Origin: Hoyosella altamirensis
Lineage (GTDB): Bacteria; Actinomycetota; Actinomycetes; Mycobacteriales; Mycobacteriaceae
Assembly: GCF_014191505.1 (NCBI RefSeq)
Contig: NZ_JACHWS010000003.1
Coordinates: forward strand, 124,001-188,000
Direction of reading: 5' to 3'
Length of the DNA stretch: 64,000 bases
Part shown: positions 5,102 to 12,090 of the stretch, piece by piece
Layout of the letters: each line of letters begins with the position of its first letter
How positions within the stretch are numbered: the stretch's first letter is position 1
Made by a program: the position numbers and the translations under genes
Notes under the pieces: generated by a model
What the model was told of the DNA's origin: nothing
Databases searched by the model: none
The model's input: only the letters and a program-made list of their open reading frames with translations

Positions 5102-5644
5102 ATGGCTACCACTCTGAAGCGAACCGCACGCACGGCAATGATCACCGGAATCCTTTCGGCTACCGCACTCATTCCCGCGATGCACGCGTCTGCAGATCCG
5201 GTCACAGTACCGGGCGTCGGTACCTTCGACGTTCCTCCCCAGGCTGCCGCCCAGTTCACTGGGAATACCGCCGTTGACATCGCAGCACCCGCGGTTTCAC
5301 AGGGCCAGGCAATTGCCGATTCCGCTCTCAGCAAGGTCGGGGCGCCGTACTCGTGGGGCGCAGCTGGCCCCGACTCGTTCGACTGCTCGGGCCTCGTCCA
5401 CTGGGCACACGCACAGGCGGGGAAATCCGTGCCCCGCACCAGCCATGACCAAGCATCGGGCGGCAGCCCCGTGAACATCAACGACCTGCAGCCCGGCGAT
5501 GTCGTTCTCATGTACAGCGGAGCGTCACACGCCGCTATCTATATCGGCGGCGGACAGGTTGTACACGCACTCAACTCGTCGGCCCCCGTCAAGGTCGATA
5601 GCCTCGGCGACTTCCCCTTCCACAGCGCGCGCCGCTACCACTGA
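5102..5644 (+). CDS. Secreted NlpC/P60 peptidoglycan endopeptidase
   Basis: 180 residues from the ATG at 5102, chosen because AAGGAGAG lies 12 nt upstream and a classic Sec signal peptide follows (MATTLKRTARTAMITGILSA, with a likely cut after ASA near residue 31). The mature protein is a short linker plus one NlpC/P60 domain: catalytic Cys95 in DCSGLVHW, His143 in SHAAIYIG, and a third polar residue near His155 (VVHALN). Such enzymes cut D-Glu-meso-DAP bonds in stem peptides, as RipA and RipD do in mycobacteria. There is no coiled coil or auto-inhibitory segment like that of RipA. The gene stands alone, with a long leader before it and a strong hairpin just after it. Confidence 0.88.
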   Translation: MATTLKRTARTAMITGILSATALIPAMHASADPVTVPGVGTFDVPPQAAAQFTGNTAVDIAAPAVSQGQAIADSALSKVGAPYSWGAAGPDSFDCSGLVHWAHAQAGKSVPRTSHDQASGGSPVNINDLQPGDVVLMYSGASHAAIYIGGGQVVHALNSSAPVKVDSLGDFPFHSARRYH

Positions 5645-5834: not shown

Positions 5835-6008
5835 ATGGCTGATCAGGGGACATCGTCCGAGTGGCGAAGGGATGTGCCTGCCATGTCAATCAACATCGGC
5901 GCCGACATATCAGTGGCAATCGCTACGATGCTGAGCTTACTTTTCGGCTTCCCGCCGCCGAAGAAGCGTCACCATCGTCGTCATCACCGTCCGAAGAAGC
6001 ACTGGTAG
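5835..6008 (+). CDS. Small protein with one hydrophobic segment and a His/Arg/Lys-rich tail
   Basis: 57 residues, not assignable to a known family. From residue 17 (an alternative ATG at 5883, with GAAGGG upstream) it reads as a short amphipathic or transmembrane segment, MSINIGADISVAIATML then SLLFGF, followed by a strikingly basic tail, PPPKKRHHRRHHRPKKHW, to the stop. This ordered layout (polar head, 20-residue hydrophobic stretch, triple proline, cationic tail) is unlikely for a chance frame, and the two overlapping frames read as noise. It lies 163 bp upstream of the MreB-like gene on the same strand, so co-transcription is possible. It may be a membrane- or wall-bound polycation. Existence is inferred from composition only. 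Confidence 0.5.
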   Translation: MADQGTSSEWRRDVPAMSINIGADISVAIATMLSLLFGFPPPKKRHHRRHHRPKKHW

Positions 6009-6171
6009 ATCGAGCAACGCGAAAGTCACGGCATACGCTGCGCCTGGATTGGATCCGGCGCAGCGCTCGTCTGCATCTCGCACTCAGCACCTTGATAGCA
6101 GGTCCGTCGAAAGCCCCTACATGCCAGCAAATCACGGTAGATTTGTGACTACCATCACATTGGGAGGCACT

Positions 6172-7158
6172 GTGGACGGATTAGGTATCGACCTGGGGAC
6201 CGCTAACACCGTTGTGGGGAGCCCGTCGGATGGAATCATCCTGAATGAGCCGTCCGTGATGCTCGTGAAAGCGAAGGATCCATATCGCGCAATGCTCGTC
6301 GGCGCGGACGCGCGAGAGTTGGTGGGGCGCACACCTGCTGGGCTCAGCACGGTGCGCCCGATGCGCGACGGTGTCATCGTCGATCTCGATTCCGCACGTG
6401 CCTTCCTCAAGGCGATCATCAGGAAGGTTGTCCCCCCGTGGCAGCTCGCGCTTCGCCCGAAAGGAGTCATCGCCGTCCCTGCGGGTGCCACGCCGCTGGA
6501 ACGCCGCGCGCTGCTGGAAGTGGGCCAGGAAGCGGGACTTCGGAAGGTGGCACTGGTTCCTGAACCGGTTGCGGGTGCTCTCGGCGCGGGAATCAACCCG
6601 CTTGAGCCGCGCGTGCACCTGGTAGTCGACATCGGCGGCGGCACAGCGGAAATGACGGCCTTCTGCTACGGCGGTATTCTCGCCCACCAAAGCTGCAAAC
6701 TCGCCGGTGACGAGCTGACAAGCGCCCTTTACCATTATCTTCGCGCTGAACACGGAGTGGTCGTGGGCGAACTGACCGCCGAGAACGCGAAGATTCACAT
6801 GCACGACGCTGGCGAACAGTCACTCATTCTCGAAGGCCGCGACGCGTCCACCGGGCGCGTTCGCCTCGTTACACTCAGCACAGACGAAGTGGCGGAAGCG
6901 CTGCGTCCGACCACCACCGAGATCGTGCATGCACTCGCCGCGTGCCAGGAGGAGCTGCCCGCTCAGGCAGTGTGCGATGTGCTCGCTGAAGGGCTCATCG
7001 TCATGGGGGGCGGTGCACTGCTCGGCGGGCTCACCCAATTGCTCGAGGAAGCCTCCGGCTTTCCTGTCAAGGTCGCTGACCATCCGCTGACGTGTGTTGC
7101 TGAAGGTGCTACACGTTGCTTGTCCCAGCCGGAGGTACTTTCCGCGTTCGCGGCGTGA
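6172..7158 (+). CDS. MreB/Mbl-family actin-like rod-shape protein
   Basis: 328 residues from the GTG at 6172, chosen because GGGAGG sits 4 nt upstream and the protein then begins as MreB does (GLGIDLGTANTVV). Actin-fold landmarks are all present: phosphate-1 loop at 4-15, NEPSVM at 25-30, EPVAGALGAG at 131-140, phosphate-2 loop VVDIGGGTAEM at 151-161, and the adenosine motif VMGGGALLGGL near the end. It is slightly shorter than typical MreB (about 340). MreB polymerises under the membrane and positions wall synthesis. Most Mycobacterium and Corynebacterium lack it, so its presence is notable. No mreC, mreD or rodZ is next to it; instead it converges, 6 bp apart, on the SEDS-PBP fusion. Confidence 0.88.
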   Translation: MDGLGIDLGTANTVVGSPSDGIILNEPSVMLVKAKDPYRAMLVGADARELVGRTPAGLSTVRPMRDGVIVDLDSARAFLKAIIRKVVPPWQLALRPKGVIAVPAGATPLERRALLEVGQEAGLRKVALVPEPVAGALGAGINPLEPRVHLVVDIGGGTAEMTAFCYGGILAHQSCKLAGDELTSALYHYLRAEHGVVVGELTAENAKIHMHDAGEQSLILEGRDASTGRVRLVTLSTDEVAEALRPTTTEIVHALAACQEELPAQAVCDVLAEGLIVMGGGALLGGLTQLLEEASGFPVKVADHPLTCVAEGATRCLSQPEVLSAFAA

Positions 7159-7164
7159 TCGCCA

Positions 7165-9996
7165 TCATGGCAGCCCTGGCGGGTCGGAGGTGTGCCGGTT
7201 CTCGGCGTAGAACTGCAGGAGGTCCTTGACGACCGGGCCCGAGGCTGCTGACCCGAACCCGCCACCGCGCACGAATGCGGTAACCACTATTTCTGGCTCC
7301 TCGTAGGGCGCAACGGCTGAGAACCAGGCGTTTGTCCCACCACCTGGAGCAGATGGATCTTCGGCGGTCCCCGTCTTCGCGGCGGAGCTGATCGGCAGGT
7401 CCGCCAACTGTCCGGCAGTGCCGCCCGTGACCGCGGCCCGCATGCCGGCACGGACCGGGCCCAAATTGTCTGCGAACGCGAGCCGCTGAGGCGCGGGAAC
7501 AGGTAGACGGATGTACTCGTCAGTCCCGTACGCATCGGCGATCCTTGGTGTCACCATCGCTCCGGTAGAGATACCGGCTGTCCATCTCGCGACCTGCATC
7601 GGCGTGACGCTGACCGTGCCTTGCCCGATCCCCATCAGCACTGTCGATCCTCCATACCAGGTGCCACCGATGCGGGCGACCGTCTCCGGCGTCCCCAGAA
7701 ACCCGCTTATCTCGCCCGGAAGATCGATACCGGACCGCTCCCCCACGCCAAGAGCCTTGGCAACCTCGGCCATTCGGTCAGGGCCTAGCATCACCCCGAG
7801 CCGGTAGAAGTACACATTGTCGGACCACTGGAGAGCTTGCACCAAGTTGTGTGGGCCCATTGGCTGCCAGTTGCGGAACGTGTGTCCGCCGTAAACGTAG
7901 GCTGCGCCCGTCGGCATGACGTACGCGGGCGAGAGAGCCTGATAGTGAGCGTTCGCGGCAGCGACGACAATCTTGAATGTCGAGCCTGGAGGACCGGCGA
8001 TCTGCGTGACTTTGTTCAGCATCGGATGGCCCGGAGCGTCCGCGAGAGACTGAATCGCGCCGAGATCGGCGGGAGGGCTATACACGTTGTTGTCGAAGCC
8101 CGGCACACTCGCCATCGCAAGCACAGCCCCGGTTCGGGCATCCATGACCTGTACTGCGCCCAGGTCGCCCCCATTGGTGCGGATCGCGTCGGTGAGCGAC
8201 TGCGTCGCCAGACGCTGCATCTCGAGATCTATGTGCAACCGCAGATCATGCCCATGCACGGGGTCAATACGCTCAGCTGGAGCAACGGGAAGGCCAGCAG
8301 GGTCGACAAAAATGCACTGCCTGCCATCGACGCCACGCAGAACCGCATCGTACTGGCGCTCAATACCCGCAGCACCTACTACCGCTCCAAGCGCGAGTTC
8401 AGGCCAGCGCTCCAAGTCATCGGTGCCACCAATCCGCACGAAACCCAGAATCTGCCCGAGGATCTCACCATGCGGATATACACGGTCACCCGACGGTATG
8501 ACTAACACACCGGGCAATCCTGCGTCGATGATCTCCTGGGCCTGGTCGGCGCCAACAGCCCCCGCACTCGCGCTGAGTTCCTCACCGCGCGCGCTGATCA
8601 TCTCAGTGAGTTCGTCTGGCGGCGTCTCCACTAGTGCCGCCAAGTCATCGACATCATCTGCACTGAACATCCCCGGCACTACCTGAACCTGATACTCGTG
8701 AGAATTCGTCGCGAGCGGTGCGCCGTTCCGGTCGAGAATCAGGCCGCGTTCGGCAGGTATCCGGATGCAGCGCGTCATCTGCTCGTCACTGAGGGCCAGC
8801 AACTCGTCCCCACGGTTGTTCTGGAGTTCCCAGATGAAGCCCGACATCACGATCAGCAGTGCGCTGACCAGAAGCGCCCCTGCGCGCGCGCCGCGCGGTT
8901 GAGGATGCGCCCTGCCTGGCGGGATCCACAGCGGCCGTCGCACCCCGTCACGTCGCACGGCAAGAACAAGACCGATCGCGGCCAGGTGCACCGTCATCAC
9001 AGTTCCGCCGTAGCTGAACAACGGAATCGGCAGTCCAGTGTGTGGCAGCAGTGACAGATTGGCCGCGACGGAGACCAGACCGTGCACGCCAAAGAGCACC
9101 GCCACCCCGGAGGCGATCAGGGCGCCCTGCGGCGTCCGCGCCACACGCGCCGCGAGAGCGCAGCGCCACACCACGATCAGGAGCGCAATAATGACCGCTA
9201 GACCCGCCAGCAGGCCCCACGCGTAGACGAGACTGACAAAGGCAAGGTCGTGTTCGCGCTCTGGGACGTAGCTGGCGCGCAGCGGGTAGAGCGGATCCGA
9301 AGCAAGACCGAAGAGACCGCCTGCGCCAATGGCAATTTCGGCTTGCACAGCCGCCCACCCCGAACCTGCTGGATCGTGGTCGCCGCTCAGGAAAACCTGA
9401 ATCCGCTCCAACTGGTAGGGCCGCAGTGCAAGAACCGCGAGCGGCACTGCAGCTATCGCGATGCCAAATAACGGCAGCAGAGGGAGCAGCGGAACGCGAC
9501 CGAGAATCAGAAGCATCACCGATGTCGCACCCAATACAAGCGCCGTGGAAAGGTCTGGCTGCAGAGCCACCAGCCCAATTGGTACACACGCGACGCCCAG
9601 CGCAATGATCAACCGCCATGGCCGATAGCCGCGTCCGAGGACAGTAGCGATCGCGAGCACAACGGCGAGTTTTGCCAGATCAGCGGGCTGCATGCTGATC
9701 GGCCCGATTTCGAGCCACCGCTGGGCGCCCTTCACTGAGACCCCCACGATTGGTACTGCAAGCAGCAAAGCAACCGCTGCCCCGTACAAACTCCAGGAGA
9801 GCAGGGTCAGATCGGCGAGCTTGATTCGCGAAAGCGCAAACACGAGAACGAATCCGACGACAGCGAAAACCGCATGCCGGAGTGCCGTGGAGTCCATCCC
9901 GAGCGTGAGGAGATTGAGAAGCCCGAACAGCACCAGTACCGCCGCGCTGCCCACTAGCAGCGGATCAGATGCGTTCTTTCGCTCTCCTTGATGCAT
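7165..9996 (-). CDS. SEDS (RodA/FtsW) glycosyltransferase fused to a class B penicillin-binding protein
   Basis: 943 residues in one frame. Residues 11-350 are a full SEDS protein with about 10 membrane spans: GAQRWL at 90, QPDLSTA at 146-152, PEREHDLAF at 245-253 (D250 aligns with the catalytic Asp of RodA) and GLPIPLFSYGGT at 321-332. An extra span at 373-390 leads outside to a class B PBP: ERGLILDRNG at 416-425, GAAGIERQYD at 541-550, active-site S672 in STFK, SDN at 725-727, and KTG at 874-876. RodA/FtsW polymerises lipid II and the PBP crosslinks it; normally these are separate genes. The ATG has AAAGG 8 nt upstream. Its start lies 12 bp after the stop of the membrane protein gene at 10009, so the two form an operon. 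Confidence 0.92.
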   Translation of the reverse strand: MHQGERKNASDPLLVGSAAVLVLFGLLNLLTLGMDSTALRHAVFAVVGFVLVFALSRIKLADLTLLSWSLYGAAVALLLAVPIVGVSVKGAQRWLEIGPISMQPADLAKLAVVLAIATVLGRGYRPWRLIIALGVACVPIGLVALQPDLSTALVLGATSVMLLILGRVPLLPLLPLFGIAIAAVPLAVLALRPYQLERIQVFLSGDHDPAGSGWAAVQAEIAIGAGGLFGLASDPLYPLRASYVPEREHDLAFVSLVYAWGLLAGLAVIIALLIVVWRCALAARVARTPQGALIASGVAVLFGVHGLVSVAANLSLLPHTGLPIPLFSYGGTVMTVHLAAIGLVLAVRRDGVRRPLWIPPGRAHPQPRGARAGALLVSALLIVMSGFIWELQNNRGDELLALSDEQMTRCIRIPAERGLILDRNGAPLATNSHEYQVQVVPGMFSADDVDDLAALVETPPDELTEMISARGEELSASAGAVGADQAQEIIDAGLPGVLVIPSGDRVYPHGEILGQILGFVRIGGTDDLERWPELALGAVVGAAGIERQYDAVLRGVDGRQCIFVDPAGLPVAPAERIDPVHGHDLRLHIDLEMQRLATQSLTDAIRTNGGDLGAVQVMDARTGAVLAMASVPGFDNNVYSPPADLGAIQSLADAPGHPMLNKVTQIAGPPGSTFKIVVAAANAHYQALSPAYVMPTGAAYVYGGHTFRNWQPMGPHNLVQALQWSDNVYFYRLGVMLGPDRMAEVAKALGVGERSGIDLPGEISGFLGTPETVARIGGTWYGGSTVLMGIGQGTVSVTPMQVARWTAGISTGAMVTPRIADAYGTDEYIRLPVPAPQRLAFADNLGPVRAGMRAAVTGGTAGQLADLPISSAAKTGTAEDPSAPGGGTNAWFSAVAPYEEPEIVVTAFVRGGGFGSAASGPVVKDLLQFYAENRHTSDPPGLP

Positions 9997-10008
9997 CGCC
10001 AGCGCCTT

Positions 10009-11283
10009 TCAGCACGAGCCACCGTCAGCGGGCACGAGCAGCGGCGCGGAGGCCACGCGATCTGGAGCATAGGTAACGGCTGTAAGCGCGACTGCAGGAC
10101 TGTCGGGCAGCATGACCTGGCTGAGACCGTAAACCTGCCGAGAATTGGGCGGCACCGGCATCGCGACACCCGGATGTTCCACTATCTCGCCAGAGCACCG
10201 GTCGGCAACATGCAATATCCAGCTGCTCAAGCTGACATCCGAATCGGGCTCGAACCGTAAATCCACACGCACAGAACAGGTCTGGGCCTGCTGGCAACCG
10301 CCATCCGCAAATGACGCCGTAACCTGCTCAACTGATCCACCTGCAGGAGGTGCCAGCTCAGGAATCGGCCCCGGCGGCAGACCACCGCCGCGGTCGAATG
10401 GTGGTGAAACCGGCTCTAGCTGCTGGGCGGGCGGATCCGGGTTCATAACCGTGTCCCACGTCGCGCGAAGGTCAGATACGACCCGAGGAATCAGGAGAAG
10501 ACCCGCTACGAGAACCGCAGCGACCAGCAGGGTCAACAGAACGAATCGGCGCGAAGGGAGTCGTATCGTCCGATGCCACACTTTTCCGGTGCGGGACCGC
10601 CGTCCCCGCGGCGCAAGTACCGCGGCAGGCTGAGGGGACGCTGACTGCGAATGACCCTGCGCCGCACGCACCACTGCCGCGAGTTCCGAGCGCAATCGCG
10701 TCTCATCAGCGACACGCAATTCGCTCTCCACGAACGTCACGAGACACCGACTGGCCTCTCCTGTGTCGCCTCCGGTCCGCACCGCGGCGGCGACGACGTC
10801 TGTGAGCGCGGACGCTCGGCGAGTGCGGCTCAGGATCGAGCAAGCAAGTTGGAGTGCGGCAATATCAAGCTCGCATTTCTGTGCGGGCTTCATGGTGCCC
10901 GCATCTGTCGTCGCCACAGTGCCGTTGATCGGAGCTCGAATGGGAGCGGGGCTACCGGCGTAGGCCCCGGACCGCTGCGCGGCAGGCAAGACGGTGGTTC
11001 TGGGTGAGGGTTCATCGCGGCTGCGCCGTGACAACTGCGTGCCGGAAAAGTCGAGGGTGCCATCCGCGGCAATCCGAACCGCTCTTTCCGGCAGCGCAGC
11101 GGGCGCCTGCGCGTGGAGTCGCTCACGATTCGCGCGCTCGACGTGGCTGATCAGGTCATCAAGCAAAAGGGCAGCTTGCTGCGGAGTCAGAAGTGCGACC
11201 GCCAGGAAGCGCTCCAGCCGCATTGACCGCGGCCGGGCTTGAGTTCCTTCCGTCTCGGCTGCAATCGTCGGATCCCCGCCCAC
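10009..11283 (-). CDS. Bitopic membrane protein with a kinase-like cytosolic part, co-operonic with the SEDS-PBP fusion
   Basis: 424 residues, no confident family. One membrane span at 247-268 (FVLLTLLVAAVLVAGLLLIP) separates a cytosolic part from an outer domain of about 150 residues. The outer domain carries a proline-rich stretch and several cysteines (GGCQQAQTCSVRV, ADRCSGEI, GGSC at the end), suggesting disulfides. In the cytosolic part, LTPQQAALLLDDLISHVE, then PERAVRIAADGTLDFSG and later CELDIAALQLACSIL recall helix E, catalytic loop and helix F of a Ser/Thr kinase C-lobe but lack catalytic residues; this is a weak resemblance and an inference. The GTG start has AGGGGG upstream. A partner or regulator of the fused wall synthase is likely from position alone. 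Confidence 0.75.
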   Translation of the reverse strand: MGGDPTIAAETEGTQARPRSMRLERFLAVALLTPQQAALLLDDLISHVERANRERLHAQAPAALPERAVRIAADGTLDFSGTQLSRRSRDEPSPRTTVLPAAQRSGAYAGSPAPIRAPINGTVATTDAGTMKPAQKCELDIAALQLACSILSRTRRASALTDVVAAAVRTGGDTGEASRCLVTFVESELRVADETRLRSELAAVVRAAQGHSQSASPQPAAVLAPRGRRSRTGKVWHRTIRLPSRRFVLLTLLVAAVLVAGLLLIPRVVSDLRATWDTVMNPDPPAQQLEPVSPPFDRGGGLPPGPIPELAPPAGGSVEQVTASFADGGCQQAQTCSVRVDLRFEPDSDVSLSSWILHVADRCSGEIVEHPGVAMPVPPNSRQVYGLSQVMLPDSPAVALTAVTYAPDRVASAPLLVPADGGSC

Positions 11284-11376
11284 AACAACCCCCTGTAAGA
11301 CGAATGTGACCTACGTCATACTTCCACGCTAGCCCAGAAACGATCATGGCGGTAGGGAGACGGAATAGATGGGGCC

Positions 11377-12090
11377 TCAATGATTTCGGCGGCGCTCCAG
11401 TTGTCTGGCACCACGAACCCACGGCCACGTCATCAGCGCCCAGATAGCAACAATGAGTGATCCAGCGACAACGATGTACCACGGCCACGGCCCAAACGCA
11501 TCCAGCAGCGACGGGGTACTGGGCTTCGCGTTCAGGAAACCGTAGTTGGTGCCCGCGAGAGAATTGAACGTCATCGTCACCACCGCCCAGGTCAGCGTCA
11601 CGGCGACGACGGTGCGGAAGCTTCCCCAGTCTGGTCGCATCCCAACTCCCCAGGTCAGGTATATCGCAGCCCAGACAACAACGAGGTGAATAGCCCAGAA
11701 AGCCAAGAAGTGCGGGTGCGGAAAATCCGGGCTTTCAAGCGCGGGGGTCACTAATGCCTGAGTACTCAGCACAAGGCACCAGTAGTAGGTCAGCGCGTAA
11801 GCCCACTGTCGCCGCGACCACAATGCGTACGCCGCGATCACGGTGGCAAGGTCAGTCAGACGCAGAGGTACTGATTGATCAATCGCAGGGGGAAGAAAGA
11901 GCACGCTCATCATGACGACGTAAAGCACGAAAACCGTGAGCCCGAAGCCTCGGCTGAAAAGCGAACTCTTTTCGCCCCGTTCACGACGTCCAATCCAGAC
12001 GGACAGCACGGCCCCGAGTGCAAAGATTCCCAGCACAAACCAGTGAGAAGGACCGTATGCGGTGAAGTCGTTCGGTGCCCCGTCACCCAC
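11377..12090 (-). CDS. TIGR02206/YwaF-type integral membrane protein
   Basis: 237 residues with six or seven hydrophobic segments. The family features recognised are an HW-containing first segment (GPSHWFVLG), RLTDLATVIAAYAL, the segment with NYGFLNAKP, and the C-terminal FGPWPWYI. Members are widespread in Gram-positive bacteria and have no established function. The gene stands alone on the minus strand, 93 bp upstream of the gene at 10009-11283, and is divergent from the PQQ-propeller lipoprotein. It ends in a short basic tail (RGARQLERRRNH) on the cytoplasmic side. Confidence 0.8.
   Translation of the reverse strand: MGDGAPNDFTAYGPSHWFVLGIFALGAVLSVWIGRRERGEKSSLFSRGFGLTVFVLYVVMMSVLFLPPAIDQSVPLRLTDLATVIAAYALWSRRQWAYALTYYWCLVLSTQALVTPALESPDFPHPHFLAFWAIHLVVVWAAIYLTWGVGMRPDWGSFRTVVAVTLTWAVVTMTFNSLAGTNYGFLNAKPSTPSLLDAFGPWPWYIVVAGSLIVAIWALMTWPWVRGARQLERRRNH

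Follow-up and report, generated by a model that had tools for sequence, protein, structure and literature searches.

A 64,000-nucleotide stretch of the genome of Hoyosella altamirensis (contig NZ_JACHWS010000003.1, positions 124,001 to 188,000; genome size 4.76 Mb), here called the window, carries a conserved three-gene unit at positions 6172-11283. It encodes a divergent MreB on the forward strand and, on the reverse strand, a natural fusion of RodA with PBP2 and a bitopic protein that we call BITOP. From conserved linkage, retained catalytic residues and the apparent lack of the usual partners, we consider it probable that the trio constitutes a self-contained, reduced Rod system, in which MreB would position the fused RodA-PBP2 and BITOP would serve as adaptor in place of MreC, MreD and RodZ. 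The three genes are as follows:

6172..7158, forward strand: divergent MreB, 328 aa, assigned by PF06723, its motifs and its clade
7165..9996, reverse strand: natural RodA-PBP2 (SEDS-class B PBP) fusion, 943 aa, assigned by Pfam and NCBIfam domains and by PDB sequence matches
10009..11283, reverse strand: BITOP, bitopic protein, 424 aa, characterized by an alignment and an AlphaFold2 model; no family match

A preliminary description of this DNA had reported an MreB-like gene converging within 6 bp on a SEDS-PBP fusion that lies in an operon with a bitopic protein. Coordinates and domain matches bear this out, 6 bp separating the stop codons of mreB and the fusion gene, and the compact set does reside in a mycolic-acid actinobacterium (genus Hoyosella). 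The span then given, 5835-11283, takes in the trio but starts too early.

Linkage and distribution of the three genes

The sample comprised 151 genomes of the GTDB family, from 31 genera, and was surveyed three times: with the window's own MreB, with its fusion, and with a profile of 22 BITOP orthologues. Strong MreB matches (E 6.4e-135 or better) occur in 29 genomes, the other 122 giving 1e-10 or weaker. A full-length fusion is likewise present in 29, with no SEDS or PBP match stronger than E 6.8e-34 in the remaining genomes, and the profile finds BITOP in 29. The carriers are the same 29 genomes each time, and because three separate surveys return an identical set, chance is excluded. Since the BITOP profile was built from 22 of the carriers, its informative results are the seven others that it found and the 122 genomes without a match.

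The carriers make up 3/3 sampled genomes of genus g1, 8/9 of g10, 5/6 of g22, 4/9 of g24, 1/1 of g26 and 8/9 of g27; the other 25 genera have none. Within g10, g22, g24 and g27 the three genes are present or absent together, and this all-or-none pattern within the genera sampled makes close relatives with and without the module available for a comparison of cell shape. The arrangement is the same at every one of the 29 loci, mreB being convergent with the fusion gene and BITOP lying upstream of the fusion. The gap between mreB and the fusion has a median of 21 bp and is 50 bp or less at 20 of the 29 loci, the largest being 1145 bp. Conservation of the neighbourhood across relatives, which the preliminary description had proposed as a check, is therefore evident, and neither of the outcomes it had set against itself, lack of conservation or complete mre genes elsewhere beside a decaying set, was seen.

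The flanks were compared across six genera in fetched stretches of 14-16 kb, using families of open reading frames (ORFs) of 100 aa or more at >30% identity and >60% coverage. When ORFs overlapping the trio are excluded, no flanking family is shared by more than two of the six genera, and 11 are shared by two; on reading, the 15 families of an earlier flank listing proved to be the trio together with ORFs in other frames over it. The trio is thus an island of three genes whose surroundings vary from genus to genus.

A survey of the class found the fusion at E 1e-150 or better in 6 of 394 genomes, the window's own included. The five further genomes add two more families, and in all five mreB is convergent and BITOP is upstream. 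Beyond the family sampled, the trio is found in Jiangellaceae, Geodermatophilaceae and Pseudonocardiaceae. A scan of named genomes gave at least 13 module loci, four of them with the same fusion as genomes already counted. Among the matches listed, the Rhodococcus loci are from R. jostii, R. wratislaviensis, R. coprophilus and a metagenome bin, and the others from Skermania, Phytoactinopolyspora, three Pseudonocardia, Geodermatophilus, two Blastococcus and Amycolatopsis. At 12 of the 13 module loci, MreB directly adjoins the fusion in convergent orientation. The other 67 loci among the matches listed include 39 with an MreB, every one on the strand of the PBP match, and none with a BITOP match.

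The preliminary description had also noted that mreC, mreD and rodZ are missing, and our searches agree as regards mreC and mreD. A model for MreC matched none of the 151 family genomes, the window's own included, and matched 8 of 14 reference genomes as a control. The MreD model also gave no match in the 151 genomes, again including the window's own; it is less sensitive, with control matches in 5 of the 14. Caulobacter has an MreD that this model missed, so the absence of MreD is not absolute. For the RodZ domain HTH_25, the window's own genome yielded only two partial matches (26.6 and 23.1 bits; profile positions 1-33 and 2-33), neither convincing. Of 19 module genomes, 17 have only one MreB at E 1e-30. 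In the other two, G278 and G505, a second MreB scores about 500 bits, and just these two of the 19 have MreC, which there accompanies the second MreB. Since MreC occurs only where a second, canonical MreB exists, the module is not part of a complete mre set. The window's genome further contains what appear to be an FHA-PstP-RodA-PbpA-kinase cluster and a murD-ftsW-murG-murC cluster (the non-SEDS names being read from sequence); with separate rodA-pbpA and ftsW present, the fusion is an additional synthase.

All three genes are under purifying selection. Pairwise Nei-Gojobori ratios of nonsynonymous to synonymous substitution (dN/dS) range from 0.01 to 0.13 in MreB, from 0.05 to 0.14 in the fusion and from 0.27 to 0.35 in BITOP, where one saturated pair yielded no value. 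Trees were compared for 22 of 25 genomes, leaving out G047 and G145, which are without the module, and G023, because we took its DnaK-like protein for a paralogue. Genome G107 (genus g22; locus L053) joins g10 in the MreB and fusion trees; the DnaK tree sets it beside G094 (locus L047) in g22. In the larger MreB tree described below, the placement of its MreB has 100/99 support. These two genomes, close by DnaK, have clearly different versions of the module, which in this one case, G107, fits an exchange of the module as a unit between lineages. A full-length fusion with 62% identity is also encoded on three large Rhodococcus plasmids (about 300-350 kb):

L221: NZ_CP046575.1
L222: NZ_CP021356.1
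L223: NZ_CP070615.1

One of the three also bears a broken BITOP remnant. The module MreB matches 57 plasmid records, each under 60% identity. A phage origin was considered and rejected: the PHROGs matches concern MreB only and fall in two families of unknown function, and the 25 matches in phage records are each under 60% identity.

Features of MreB, the fusion and BITOP

The MreB of the window matches PF06723 with 300.5 bits (cut-off 27), and its best PDB sequence match is an MreB (E 1.6e-70). Among NCBIfam models it passes NF010539 (302.9 bits; cut-off 293) and falls below TIGR00904 (284.7; cut-off 365.75). The GTG at 6172, preceded by GGGAGG, is the likely start codon. The nucleotide motifs are intact, with what we take to be phosphate-1 (GIDLGTANT), the conserved Glu (in LVPEPVAG) and phosphate-2 (VVDIGGGT). 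A tree was built from 115 MreB sequences (108 different), comprising 46 from the module (four repeats), 32 actinobacterial and 37 other; it excludes L043, L129 and L158, for which the best domain was a short one, together with loci lacking an MreB match, and the MreB of L094 entered as L185. In this unrooted tree, which does not include Streptomyces Mbl, the 46 module proteins group in a single clade with 100/100 support and a stem of 0.92, separate from the canonical MreBs. The label "canonical" derives from Pfam scores or an adjoining PBP, MreC having been checked for two only. Several module branches are long, and L088, L089, L090, L092 and L093 are odd in composition. By this phylogeny the module MreB appears to be a distinct, separate subfamily.

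SEDS and PBP are truly joined in one ORF, since all three Pfam domains of the fusion fall in its 943-aa frame (PF01098, residues 36-349; PF03717, 413-569; PF00905, 613-928). The SEDS half spans about residues 14-351 and the PBP half 373-933. The former scores higher with the RodA model (234.5 bits) than with FtsW (193.8), below the RodA equivalog cut-off of 336.7, and the latter higher with PBP2 (400.7) than with SpoVD (190.8), below the PBP2 equivalog cut-off of 455. The best solved sequence relatives are the PBP2 and RodA of entries 8tj3 and 6pl5. Active-site residues of the window fusion are S672xxK675, S725DN727, K874TGT and, in the SEDS half, D250, presumably the catalytic Asp. All 47 module fusions (43 distinct) keep S672, K675, S725, K874, G876 and D250; N727 is replaced by Asp in seven and T875 by Ser in one, and Cys410 and Cys561 are invariant. 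An alignment of the fusions omitted L094. The fusion thus looks catalytically competent. The genome search raised stop flags in the fusions of G051, G110, G320, G247 and G168, but each of these is a single open ORF, and the flagged stops are therefore taken to lie outside the fusion. The AlphaFold model of the fusion is poor, with a mean predicted local distance difference test score (pLDDT) of 63 and much of the transpeptidase part below 50; PBP3 of Pseudomonas, which came first in its fold search, was set aside because the model is poor and the sequence indicates PBP2.

BITOP has a single hydrophobic, presumptively transmembrane segment (residues 247-265) and no match in Pfam or NCBIfam. Three alignments (A1, A2 and A3) covered 18, 11 and 22 of the 29 family loci. 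That of 22 BITOP orthologues shows a variable N-terminal part with an LTPAQAALL-like helix, a basic stretch and the one transmembrane segment, followed by a C-terminal domain with four invariant Cys residues (330, 336, 363 and 424). The AlphaFold2 model, for which L090 and L093 were left out of the alignment, has a helical N-terminal part, a long helix (245-280) and a C-terminal seven-strand beta sandwich. The last is mostly at pLDDT 90 or more; the whole model has 73.6 and a predicted TM-score of 0.43, so the relative placement of the domains is uninformative. We infer that the N-terminal part is cytosolic and the beta sandwich extracytoplasmic.

None of the 22 orthologues matches HTH_25 or the MreC model PF04085 at E up to 0.5, and BITOP was accordingly rejected as a RodZ and as an MreC. 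Nothing among PDB sequences matched better than E 0.21. The leading Foldseek matches are beta-sandwich domains of unrelated proteins (best E 8.7e-4; target-normalised TM 0.34), and RodZ is absent among the 50 matches listed. A guess that the N-terminal part is a degenerate kinase lobe found no support in fold and family searches and was dropped. The locus of G094 (L047), where MreB has Val at the conserved Glu and BITOP is N-terminally short, is possibly a decaying copy.

A reduced Rod system and its alternatives

The Rod complex, or elongasome, which builds the side walls of other bacteria and is known from E. coli and B. subtilis (MreBCD, RodZ, RodA, PBP2), shares with the module the MreB actin, a RodA-type SEDS protein and a PBP2-type transpeptidase. 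The module differs in having RodA and PBP2 as a single polypeptide, in lacking matches to MreC or MreD and a recognisable RodZ and having BITOP instead, and in its mreB, which is convergent rather than on the same strand and encodes a protein of a separate clade. In E. coli, the interaction between PBP2 and RodA is acted on by MreC and MreD (PMC7793260), and RodZ connects MreB with PBP2/RodA (PMC6946637). Like RodZ, BITOP is bitopic and combines a presumably cytosolic domain with a presumably extracytoplasmic beta domain, but it has no HTH_25.

Within the actinobacteria, the nearest likeness is the spore wall synthesising complex of Streptomyces, which, according to parts of PMC4416010, is an MreB-linked PBP2 and RodA homologue in a tip grower; there MreBCD, PBP2 and Sfr thicken the spore wall and are dispensable for tip growth. 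That complex has mreC, mreD and separate pbp2 and sfr genes, differently arranged from the module, which is without an mreC or mreD match. The Streptomyces MreB would lie in the canonical clade if family f21 is Streptomycetaceae. Engineered RodA-PBP2 fusions, as described in portions of PMC10449877 and PMC6207328, place SEDS before PBP in one active chain; they use synthetic linkers, whereas the fusion of the module is natural. Natural fusion as such is not new, because PMC10449877 mentions single-ORF SEDS-PBP examples, though without detail. M. tuberculosis and relatives are described in part of PMC8262863 as having no Rod components other than RodA-PBP2. No description of the MreB-fusion-BITOP trio was found among the matches listed from titles and abstract openings of the open-licence PMC literature, and we regard the trio as a new version of a Rod-type system.

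Mycolic-acid actinobacteria are taught as MreB-free tip growers; the trio would, if the reading given at the outset is true, represent a minimal Rod system found in nature. Filaments of MreB, lying on the inner face of the membrane, would position the synthase. BITOP would couple them to the fusion across the membrane and/or switch PBP2 on, taking the places of RodZ and of MreC/MreD. Covalent fusion would fix a 1:1 pairing of polymerase and cross-linker, and together with one adaptor it could make MreC, MreD and RodZ dispensable. Which Rod components can be spared once synthase and cross-linker are covalently joined thereby becomes testable; the trio also bears on what MreC, MreD and RodZ do, and on whether some tip growers have a second, actin-guided growth zone. 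Because separate RodA-PbpA and FtsW coexist with it, the fusion probably acts as a second synthase, used conditionally or locally, and not as the principal machine of polar elongation. The machine may serve some zone or condition outside routine polar growth, and its use might be lateral or stage-specific, as the preliminary description had suggested, or septal. In a fuller version, which we put forward only tentatively, this would be a minimal machine independent of MreC, MreD and RodZ and exchanged as a unit between actinobacterial genera; the MreB of one Rhodococcus-type clade would manage without canonical ATP hydrolysis, and the whole would provide a second actin-guided growth mode.

Several observations weigh against a reduced Rod system of this kind. 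In 11 of the 46 module MreBs the phosphate-2 Asp has become Asn or Ser, by a single change on the tree, and eight of the 46 have another residue in place of the conserved Glu, through four changes; the canonical MreBs have the Asp in 67/69 and the Glu in 62/69. Both residues are needed for ATP hydrolysis, and with their replacement ATP turnover may be dispensable to MreB in some lineages. The Asn/Ser clade (L045, L046, L048, L050-L053, L055, L057, L058 and L060) is nevertheless under selection, its MreB dN/dS being 0.03-0.08 in four sequence pairs. Since BITOP is unlike RodZ and MreC by family and fold search, the case for it as adaptor is drawn from topology and linkage; the BITOP of G094 is without the N-terminal part, and those of Pseudonocardia, Geodermatophilaceae and Amycolatopsis match weakly (46-108 bits). 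Blastococcus TF02-09 has its MreB, a partial match, about 7 kb off on a contig of the same length. No MreB was found near the fusion in the 18.8-kb stretches of the three plasmids, so the fusion persists without adjoining partners, which argues against strict interdependence. G094 is placed differently in the MreB and fusion trees, and the tree-distance correlations hardly differ (DnaK-MreB 0.846, DnaK-fusion 0.871, MreB-fusion 0.879). A palindrome pair upstream of the two transcription units (see below) is confined to 3 of the 29 family genomes.

Some of these points would suit a conditional wall-repair or stress synthase, answering for example to carbon or cAMP state in Hoyosella, with MreB and BITOP regulating or localising the fusion and cell shape unaffected. 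The solo plasmid fusions, the CRP/GlxR-like sites of the genus and the phosphate-2 loss in an MreB clade still under purifying selection are all in keeping with it, as are the patchy distribution of the trio and the separate RodA-PbpA and FtsW of the same genome. We nonetheless find it unlikely, since MreB is kept beside the fusion in 29/29 family carriers and a mere spare PBP would need no actin subfamily of its own. A good deal less probable is a spore- or resting-cell-wall machine like that of Streptomyces, in genera with hyphal or rod-coccus cycles. The spore-wall thickening noted above lends it some plausibility, and Pseudonocardia, Geodermatophilus and Amycolatopsis, which are mycelial or multicellular in habit, are among the carriers; however, the Rhodococcus and Hoyosella carriers are not known to form spores, and no gene family accompanies the module in more than two of the six family genera.

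Decay of an ancestral mreBCD-pbp2-rodA operon could account for the missing MreC and MreD and for the altered MreB motif residues of some lineages. We regard it as very improbable: purifying selection is strong, the catalytic residues are kept in 47/47 fusions, mreB is on the convergent strand, unlike the 39 other mreB loci among the 67, and the deep, separate MreB clade coexists with canonical MreB and MreC in two genomes. Least credible of all, and close to negligible, is a chance adjacency of two unrelated units; opposite strands and solo fusions on plasmids would allow it, but 29/29 linkage, genus-differing flanks and all-or-none presence speak against it. Conserved linkage, retained catalytic residues, purifying selection and a separate MreB clade together point to a conserved stand-alone module rather than to decay.

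Upstream sequences and neighbouring genes

Three further features lie around the module:

5883..6008, forward strand: small basic ORF with a single transmembrane segment, 41 aa, found in 2 genomes of the genus only; outside the conserved module
6144..6159, forward strand: perfect CRP/GlxR-like palindrome TGTGACTACCATCACA, upstream of mreB; 3/3 genomes of the genus
11305..11320, forward strand: CRP/GlxR-like palindrome with 1 mismatch, upstream of BITOP-fusion; 3/3 genomes of the genus

The pattern TGTGA-N6-TCACA, which we take to be of the CRP/GlxR type, has a single perfect copy in the 64-kb window, 13-28 bp before mreB, and a copy with one mismatch 22-37 bp before BITOP. The window holds five matches with up to one mismatch, against 1.9 expected, and 5 of 100 shuffles reach five. 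The other 26 family loci gave no match with up to one mismatch in either region (the mreB side of L041 being unscanned), and L039 has one match with two mismatches near BITOP. A family-wide shared regulatory motif was thus rejected on the distribution of this pair, other motifs not having been searched systematically. The functional link between the two strands, which the preliminary description had drawn from adjacency, is now backed by co-occurrence, by conserved order and, in the genus, by a palindrome upstream of both units.

The small basic ORF had been listed as a fourth member of the set. It was matched by tblastn (E up to 1e-3, a weak test at 41 aa) in only 1 of 28 relatives' loci, that of the sister genome G050, and is therefore not part of the conserved module. 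Its PPKKR stretch was found in none of the three forward frames of the locus in the third genome of the genus. The ORF is probably real, since it differs from that of G050 by three synonymous changes and nothing else.

Two putative wall genes are located near the module, an NlpC/P60 hydrolase (5114-5644; best NCBIfam match RipC, below cut-off) and a VanY-like carboxypeptidase (1674-2333; named by reading of the sequence); neither recurs beside the module in three or more genera. A TMEM164-related membrane acyltransferase gene (11377-12090) is found just upstream of BITOP here and in G050. No homologue was found in the other fetched family stretches apart from L039, where one lies just upstream of mreB.

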